A DNA stretch of 64,000 nt from Deltaproteobacteria bacterium (lineage in GTDB: Bacteria > Myxococcota > Myxococcia > Myxococcales > SZAS-1): positions 1 through 64,000 of the forward strand of contig JAFEBB010000001.1 in assembly GCA_018266075.1 (NCBI GenBank). The letters run 5' to 3'. A model generated the notes under the pieces. The model did not search any database and was not told the origin of the DNA. It saw only the letters and a list, made by a program, of their open reading frames with translations. The position numbers and the translations under genes are program-made. Of the stretch, positions 36,885 through 39,147 are shown piece after piece; within the stretch, counting starts at the first letter, position 1, and the number at the start of each line of letters is the position of its first letter.

Positions 36885-37034
36885 CTACATCCGCTCGATG
36901 CGCATGTAGCGAATGATGTTGGGCATCTCGCGGAGCGCCAGCGCAATCCCCGCGAATGCGAGGGCCACGCCGAAGACCTTCGCCGCGGCCTGCACCGCCT
37001 GCGAGCCCTGAGAACGAATGACGATGTGCTTCAT
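36885..37034 (-). CDS. tiny DUF6893-like protein of the hydrogenase-associated operon
   Basis: An ATG at 37034 with GGAGG upstream opens a 49-residue frame. The product has one hydrophobic segment (VFGVALAFAGIALAL) and ends PNIIRYMRIERM, resembling the C-terminus of DUF6893 miniproteins. Its start overlaps the stop of the maturation protease gene by 4 bp. Similar tiny proteins accompany group 1h hydrogenase genes in other bacteria as far as I know; a function has not been assigned. Confidence 0.6.
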   Translation of the reverse strand: MKHIVIRSQGSQAVQAAAKVFGVALAFAGIALALREMPNIIRYMRIERM

Positions 37035-37528
37035 GGGTGCACCTCCGGTTGCTTCCCTACGGGCTTGATCTCGCGATCGAGCAGCTCGAGCACGATCGTC
37101 ACCGCGTCGTCGACGACGGCCTCGACCTGGGGGCTCAACGCCATGCGCTCCTCGACGCTCTTCGGCACGCAGCCCACGATTCGCACCGGCGGCATCGCTG
37201 CGCCGAGCGCGCGCGCCTGCGCGAAGACCGCGGGCAGATCCATGCCGTGCGGGCTCTGGTCGCCGCCCGGGAGACTGGCGAGGTCCGGCTCGAGCGCGAA
37301 GAGCGTCCCCGGCGCGTGCCCCGGCCGCATCAGCGCATCGACGATGATCAGCAGCTCCAGCGGCTGCATCAGGTCATAGGCGAGGTGCAGCCCGCGAATG
37401 CCGTAGTCGATGGCGGTGATGCCCGGCGGCAGCGGGTGCGCACGAATGCGGCGAATCACCTCGGGACCAAAGCCGTCGTCGCCGAGGAAGATGTTCCCGA
37501 CGCCGGCAATCAAGGCGCTCGTGCTCAT
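37031..37528 (-). CDS. [NiFe]-hydrogenase maturation protease (HyaD family)
   Basis: The 165-residue product starts at ATG 37528 with GGAGG upstream. It has the family signatures GVGNIFLGDDGFGPEV (Asp/Glu nickel-sensing residues) at about 9-24, DYGIRGLHLAY at about 41-51, and IIVDALMRPGHAPGTL at about 60-75. These endopeptidases remove the C-terminal tail of the hydrogenase large subunit after nickel insertion. No large-subunit gene lies in the window, and the opposing genes are hydrogenase remnants, so the substrate is either elsewhere in the genome or lost. Confidence 0.88.
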   Translation of the reverse strand: MSTSALIAGVGNIFLGDDGFGPEVIRRIRAHPLPPGITAIDYGIRGLHLAYDLMQPLELLIIVDALMRPGHAPGTLFALEPDLASLPGGDQSPHGMDLPAVFAQARALGAAMPPVRIVGCVPKSVEERMALSPQVEAVVDDAVTIVLELLDREIKPVGKQPEVHP

Positions 37529-37977
37529 GGTGCAGCCTCCGCGGCTTCGACGAGCGGCTCCACCTCGTCCAGGGCGTAGTACTGGTAGCGGCCGTACCAG
37601 CGGTGCAGCTCGGCAGCCGGGTCCTGGTCGAGCGTGACCGCGACGTACGCGCGGCCATCGACGTCGGTCATCACTGCCTCCACCGTCGCCACGCAGCCGA
37701 CGAACAGACAATCCTGCGCATCCGTGCGGCGCGAGCTGGCGCGCAGGCGCACGCGGCTGCCGCGCGTCAGTCCTCCGGGCGATGCGCGCGGGATCATCTC
37801 TTCGCGGTGCACGTCGCGGAACGCGCCGTGGAGCCGCTCCCAATCCTCGGGCTGCAGCTTCTCCGATTGGTCGATGATGGCCGCCGAGCGCGGATCGGTC
37901 GCGCGCGCCTCGTCTTCTTCAATGGCGCGACGCACGAACTGCTCCACCAAGACCGAGTCCGAAGACGCGCCCGACAT
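37525..37977 (-). CDS. hydrogenase-operon-associated protein
   Basis: The 150-residue product begins at ATG 37977 after AGGAG. Its C-terminal half (GSRVRLRASSRRTDAQD, then FVGCVATVEAV, VAVTLDQDPAAEL and YYALDEVEPL) resembles an uncharacterised protein commonly encoded beside group 1h [NiFe]-hydrogenase and HyaD-type protease genes. It overlaps the protease gene by 4 bp. Its role is unknown; assembly or maturation is inferred only from gene neighbourhood. Confidence 0.65.
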   Translation of the reverse strand: MSGASSDSVLVEQFVRRAIEEDEARATDPRSAAIIDQSEKLQPEDWERLHGAFRDVHREEMIPRASPGGLTRGSRVRLRASSRRTDAQDCLFVGCVATVEAVMTDVDGRAYVAVTLDQDPAAELHRWYGRYQYYALDEVEPLVEAAEAAP

Positions 37978-38166
37978 GTACTCTCCTCGGGAGAACAGAT
38001 GATCCGCTCCCAAGGTGGCCATGCACCCGATCGGCTGCACGGGCGGAGTCGAGGTTCCGAGGTCCCGAAGAACCCTCGACAAGGATCCCACTCGTCCTCT
38101 GGTTCGATGCGGCCGCTCGCCTGCGTGGCCAAGCTCGACGGGCACACCTGGACGCGGAGTGAAGTC

Positions 38167-38806
38167 ATGCCCCAGACACCTTCAGGCGTCGATGAGGTTC
38201 ACATGTTCACATCCTCTGGATTTCGGAGGGCATGAGCTGCGACGGCGACACCGTGTCCATCACAGCGGCCCAGCGGCCAAGCCTGGAGGACGTTCTGCTC
38301 GGGCTCATACCGGGACTGCCCAAGGCGCACCTGCACAACAAGTGCTCGACTTCTCGCTCGGCGTGCGAACCGACTTGCTTCGACTTCGCAGCGCCGGCGC
38401 CGACGTGCGCATCGCCTACTCACCGCTCGACGCCGTTCAGCTCGCTCGCGAGAACCCACGACGCGAGGTGGTGTTCTTTGGAATCAGCTTCGCGACGCGA
38501 CAGAAGCTCGGCGTGGAGATCGATGAGCACTTGGTGCCCGTGGCCGATGCGGTGCGCGGCGCGTGCGAGCTCCTGGGAATGGACCCTATGCTCATCGCCA
38601 ACGAAGGAAAGCTCGTCGCGTTCGTGCCGCCGGAGGGCGCAGGGGCCGTGCTCGAGGCCATGCGCGCACATCCGCTGGGTCGCGCGGCCGCGCGGCTTGG
38701 TGTCGTGACTGCGGAGCATCCGTGGACGGTCGCGGTGCGAACGCTCGTCGGCGGACGACGCGTCCTCGACCTGCCGTTTGGCGAGGTTCTCCCGCGCATC
38801 TGTTGA
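38167..38806 (+). pseudogene. collapsed hydrogenase locus: hhyS-hypD-hypE fragments
   Basis: Three hydrogenase genes are fused by deletions. Part 1 (38167 to about 38345) is the N-terminus of a group 1h small subunit. It reads MPQTPSGVDEVH, then, after an 8-bp tandem duplication (GTTCACAT at 38197-38204 and 38205-38212) shifts the frame, ILWISEGMSCDGDTVS and LGLIPGLPKAHLHN. Part 2 (about 38370-38497), after a 1-bp loss near 38342, matches HypD (GADVRIAYSPLDAV, REVVFFGISFAT). Part 3 (about 38506-38806) is the last 100 residues of HypE (GACELLGMDPMLIANEGKL, FGEVLPRIC end). CDGD in place of CxxC is the Asp-ligated proximal cluster motif of group 1h enzymes. Not functional as it stands. Confidence 0.85.
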
Positions 38807-38940
38807 GCGCGCCTTGCACGGTGGTTGCCGACCCGCTGCAACCGACGCCACCCGCGTTCCAGCAGGTGGCGTCGATGGGTCGCCTCACCGGTGCACGGTG
38901 CGAGGCGACTTGGCGCTCGGCGACGAGCTGGAGCAAGACG

Positions 38941-39135
38941 ATGGCTGAGTTGCCCCTGGCGCGGATTGGCGAGCGCACTTCCGAAGAGCTCGGGCAGCTC
39001 TTCCGCGCGGCCAACCACCCCAAGGAGCTCGTGACCGTGGAGCTGATGCTCAAGCCCTACGACTTGTCCGTGCTTCTGGAGCGCGTGAGCGAGGGCGTCA
39101 CGAAGCGCAGGCCACACACCGACGCCCATCCTTGA
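38941..39135 (+). pseudogene. possible remnant of a receiver-like protein
   Basis: A 64-residue frame starts at ATG 38941. Its last half, ELMLKPYDLSVLLERV, resembles the C-terminal Lys-Pro helix of CheY-type receiver domains, while the first half fits no part of that fold. It lies in the decayed stretch next to the hydrogenase remnants and has no convincing ribosome-binding site. It may be the joined ends of a deleted gene, or a small gene of its own. Confidence 0.3.
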
Positions 39136-39147
39136 ATCACTCGGCCC

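Follow-up and report, generated by a model that had tools for sequence, protein, structure and literature searches.

A myxobacterial DNA stretch that is probably the vestige of a recently lost group 1h [NiFe]-hydrogenase locus

The window analysed here, a stretch of 64,000 nucleotides, comes from a draft myxobacterial genome (7.84 Mb in 166 contigs, 96.6% complete, 0.7% contamination) and carries the following features:

36888..37034, minus strand: intact open reading frame for a DUF6893 protein of 49 aa (Pfam PF21833, E 1.2e-6, above cut-off; 54% over 35 aa to the Labilithrix locus L057)
37031..37528, minus strand: intact gene for a HycI/HupD-type [NiFe]-hydrogenase maturation protease of 165 aa (TIGR00072, E 1.1e-35, above cut-off)
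37552..37989, minus strand: truncated accessory gene ('acc'), residues ~271-421 of ~425 aa (the last ~150), 58% identical (E 1e-44) to the intact copy in genome G117
37993..38198, no strand: spacer of ~206 bp between the acc and hhyS remnants, of no recognisable origin
38199..38363, plus strand: hhyS remnant, the N-terminal ~55 residues of a group 1h small subunit with CDGD kept and a 1-bp frameshift near 38343
38363..38488, plus strand: hypD remnant, residues ~104-146 (TIGR00075, profile positions 104-149, E 2.8e-12)
38495..38806, plus strand: hypE remnant, spanning residues ~230-332 and ending in the native C-terminal PRIC and stop (TIGR02124, positions 227-332, E 7.3e-30)

The three plus-strand pieces lie head to tail (HhyS N-terminus, HypD middle, HypE C-terminus), and the HypD and HypE matches both fall within one open reading frame of 263 aa (38015-38806). 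The initial annotation had proposed fragments of these three proteins at 38167-38806, together with a small-subunit CDGD motif of the group 1h type, and our comparisons bear out both proposals, with matches far above chance. For the HhyS piece, 47 residues (translation from 38196) matched PDB 5aa5_A, the small subunit of a group 1h-like enzyme of the actinobacterial type, with an E-value of 1.4e-19, whereas conventional small subunits reached only E 0.05 or worse; the HypE part also matched PDB HypE structures (E 1e-21). Many group 1h loci match the HhyS piece with 74-87% identity. The piece has both marks of a group 1h origin, as its proximal-cluster motif contains an Asp and the known sequences nearest to it are those of group 1h enzymes. 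This Asp ligates the proximal cluster in group 1h enzymes, and CDGD in place of CxxC is an already known feature of them (PMC7174314). Alignment with intact loci recovered the same three pieces at the DNA level, the identities to the locus of Anaeromyxobacter oryzae being 81% over 169 bp, 73% over 301 bp and 73% over 102 bp. Right after the hypE remnant, an open stretch of 104 codons (38821-39132, plus strand) ends in ELVTVELMLKPYDLSVLLERVSEGVTKRRPHTDAHP; it has no Pfam match and is either a small gene or noise, and neither DNA comparison with intact loci nor Pfam gave a convincing match for the origin of 38807-39147.

Alignment with the intact loci placed the hhyS-hypD join at ~38363 and the hypD-hypE join within 38486-38500, with the HypD and HypE pieces in frame. 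The hhyS frame is lost after HNK by the frameshift near 38343: HNKVLDYSLGG of A. oryzae is encoded by AACAAGGTGCTGGACTACTCGCTCGGCGGC, and the corresponding AACAAGTGCTCGACTTCTCGCTCGGCG of the window is one base shorter, which shifts the final hhyS codons into the next frame (HNK, then (V)LDFSLG). With this one exception, the codons are still readable, as the initial annotation had stated. The DNA match to the relatives runs on past the frameshift, to 38368-38372. At each join, the two genes of the relatives share 2-3 bases (GGC; TCG), which would suit deletion at short homologies, and we infer that the joins are deletions at this 2-3 bp shared sequence and that the loss took place in the organism, not in the assembly. 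Long direct repeats, which could explain either a deletion or a misassembly, were not found at the joins, and GC content is even across them. An assembler might have joined three pieces of a locus that the organism keeps in full, and both the draft state of the assembly (166 contigs) and the little decay in the fragments would fit such an error; low decay would also be seen if the assembly had dropped sequence that the organism still carries. However, the two exact joins are ~130 bp apart with no long repeats to mislead an assembler, GC is even over them, a frameshift in the hhyS piece is unexpected for a working copy, and the missing genes are in no contig, which makes misassembly, although the foremost rival reading, improbable.

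The in-frame HypD-HypE join, which runs without a stop for 155 residues inside the 263-aa open reading frame, would also fit a fragment put to new use, as would the intact hycI and DUF6893 genes and the lack of excess substitutions. Yet the HypD piece is without almost all of the protein, the HypE piece is without its N-terminal two thirds, a join is in frame by chance in one case in three, and recency explains the lack of decay equally well. That the joined piece, or the orphan hycI-DUF6893 pair, has been retained for a new use is thus barely credible.

A collapse into 640 bp, as originally described, is too narrow for the relic as a whole, which continues to the left from 38167 to about 36888. 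In intact loci, hhySL regularly has the genes for the protease and the accessory protein close by, and in the group 1h locus of Labilithrix the DUF6893 small protein adjoins them, next to hycI. The protease is 48-56% identical to those of group 1h-bearing genomes of the same taxonomic order. The accessory gene is also cut, since its N-terminal ~270 residues are missing. The ~206 bp between it and the hhyS remnant matched none of the intact loci compared significantly, either as DNA or in six-frame translation, and this unexplained spacer, like the incomplete draft of 166 contigs, counts against reading the stretch as a vestige. Group 1h small-subunit matches are patchy in the phylum, occurring in 9 of 195 Myxococcota genomes with the relic counted, and such patchiness would be in keeping with foreign hydrogenase-locus fragments captured by recombination instead of resident remains. 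This origin is nonetheless very unlikely, as the intact hycI, the DUF6893 gene and the truncated accessory gene on the flank are arranged as in an intact relative, and a respiratory gene cluster 11 kb away has its match directly beside the Labilithrix group 1h locus. The hycI and DUF6893 genes are orphans, the protease having no known substrate in the genome. There is a small chance that this pair, without any hydrogenase, has been retained for a different role in the lineage, in which case a hydrogenase maturation protease can gain a new use.

The genome-wide search for hyp genes took in HypB, HypD, HypE and HypF. The piece at 38363-38488 was the sole HypD match in the 7.84-Mb assembly, no HypE above cut-off was present outside the relic, all HypB matches in the assembly were below the family cut-off, and for HypF only an acylphosphatase-like match was returned. 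Across the contigs of the assembly, there was likewise no further copy of HhyS and no second copy of the accessory protein. HhyL was absent from all contigs in a protein-query search that had no positive control of its own, the same query readily finding homologues in the loci of relatives. The searches for HhyS, HypD, HypE, HhyL, HypF and the accessory protein revealed no intact locus hidden elsewhere in the assembly. A working group 1h enzyme requires complete small and large subunits with Ni-binding cysteines as well as HypABCDEF; here, HhyS is cut after ~55 residues and frameshifted, HhyL and HypF are absent, HypD and HypE are present only as pieces, and HypB stays below cut-off. Because HypD, an intact HypE, HhyS, HhyL, HypF and an above-cut-off HypB are absent elsewhere, a mature [NiFe]-hydrogenase would not be expected in this myxobacterium. 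From the sequence comparisons, a relic of a group 1h locus, as proposed in the initial annotation, is the best reading of the HhyS, HypD and HypE pieces, the flanking HycI, DUF6893 and accessory genes placed as in intact loci, and the lack of a working copy elsewhere in the assembly.

The retained pieces show little sequence decay. Over the retained residues, identity between fragment and intact homologues was close to that of the intact homologues among themselves for HhyS (80.4 vs 79.8%), for HypE (65.2 vs 66.4%) and for HypD (70.3 vs 69.9%), the HypD sample in this and the following comparison being small (8 sequences). Only 1 of 47 invariant columns was broken by the window (HhyS 0/17, HypD 1/15, HypE 0/15). 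One break in 47 codons sets an upper bound of roughly 4-5% per site for unconstrained change since the loss (Poisson 95%), assuming that about three quarters of random substitutions alter the residue. The few changes and the single 1-bp indel support a loss that would be young relative to the divergence of these families, and the recent loss suggested at the outset is supported, since change at invariant positions is not in excess.

Intact loci differ in gene order, and many orders were found among those compared. In the intact myxobacterial loci seen whole, hypD-hypE lie upstream of hhyS or hhyS is directed away from them, and because of this order and orientation, simple deletion from such loci cannot yield hhyS-hypD-hypE on one strand. 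Within the same taxonomic order, genome G117 gave the closest or nearly the closest match to the protease and to the accessory gene. One of its contigs carries hycI(-) acc(-) hhyS(+) hhyL(+), the left part arranged as in the window, and ends inside hhyL; on a second contig, which ends inside hypB, hypF-hypD-hypE diverge from hypA-hypB. A natural reconstruction for G117, across the contig gap, would be hhyS-hhyL-hypB/A-hypF-hypD-hypE. If joined at those ends, the two contigs give the order of the window, and deletion alone would therefore suffice. In the hypB of G117 (L147 14100-14852, end of contig C213), a very long histidine-rich repeat region extends beyond the contig end and is the probable cause of the assembly break at this point. 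Furthermore, hhyS...hypF-hypD-hypE occurs gap-free on one strand in seven Frankia- and Geodermatophilus-type loci. The relic order hence fits G117 only if its contigs join as proposed, and fits the Frankia-type loci for hhyS...hypD-hypE. An ancestral order with hhyS upstream of hypD-hypE, without which deletions alone would not account for the relic, is drawn from other families and across a contig gap and appears plausible; the claim that the fragments stand in genomic order through internal deletions is likewise no more than plausible, as intact loci vary in order.

Taken together, the stretch is very probably what remains of a resident group 1h [NiFe]-hydrogenase locus that this myxobacterial lineage has recently lost by two or three large deletions. 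One internal deletion would have led from hhyS into hypD, a second from hypD into hypE, and a third break, on the left, from the accessory gene into the region before hhyS. These breaks would have removed hhyL, hypF and other hyp genes completely, together with the greater part of hhyS, and would have shortened hypD, hypE and the accessory gene, with the 1-bp frameshift additionally breaking the hhyS piece; none of the products of the scraps would be expected to function. Intact group 1h loci with hhySL and hyp genes, as in A. oryzae (L053), Minicystis rosea (L050), a Labilithrix MAG (L057) and genome G005 (L127), share with the vestige the same genes, a CDGD-type small subunit, hycI and the accessory protein, with DUF6893 adjoining in L057. 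In contrast to them, the vestige retains only minor parts of hhyS, hypD and hypE and nothing of hhyL or hypF, and its hhyS is frameshifted. As in pseudogenised gene clusters in general, what is left is a set of short pieces from several genes of a single locus, probably produced by deletion, and the genome has no functional copy; the vestige differs from such clusters in its unusually little decay and in its intact orphan accessory genes.

Group 1h enzymes oxidise atmospheric H2, and this myxobacterium has very probably lost a gene cluster that would have allowed the use of trace H2 in air. In biological terms the case would be one of ordinary gene loss, the trait being patchily distributed, and the vestigial locus belongs to a known type and is not a new system. 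A literature search for lost group 1h loci or hyp relics found no described example, which does not show that none exists. A relic so little decayed indicates that the patchiness of group 1h in Myxococcota is partly due to recent loss and not only to late gain, and it cautions against inferring a hydrogenase from a hyp-like match or from hycI, even where hycI is intact.

Two further clusters were noted in this genome. On contig C2 (189000-197000; L001 / L148), a Hyf-type, complex I-related cluster has a single weak NiFe large-subunit match, which was not taken for a hydrogenase because the Ni-binding cysteine motif is missing by eye; the cluster probably encodes a complex that is related to hydrogenases but lacks a Ni-Fe site. 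Within the window, the cluster at 49848-55673 matches L057 14202-20091 in order and comprises a multihaem cytochrome c7-type protein, a Fer4-domain iron-sulfur protein and further subunits, and it looks like an alternative complex III. Its counterpart in the Labilithrix MAG lies just downstream of hhySL, so that the relic may in the past have had its electron acceptor next to it.
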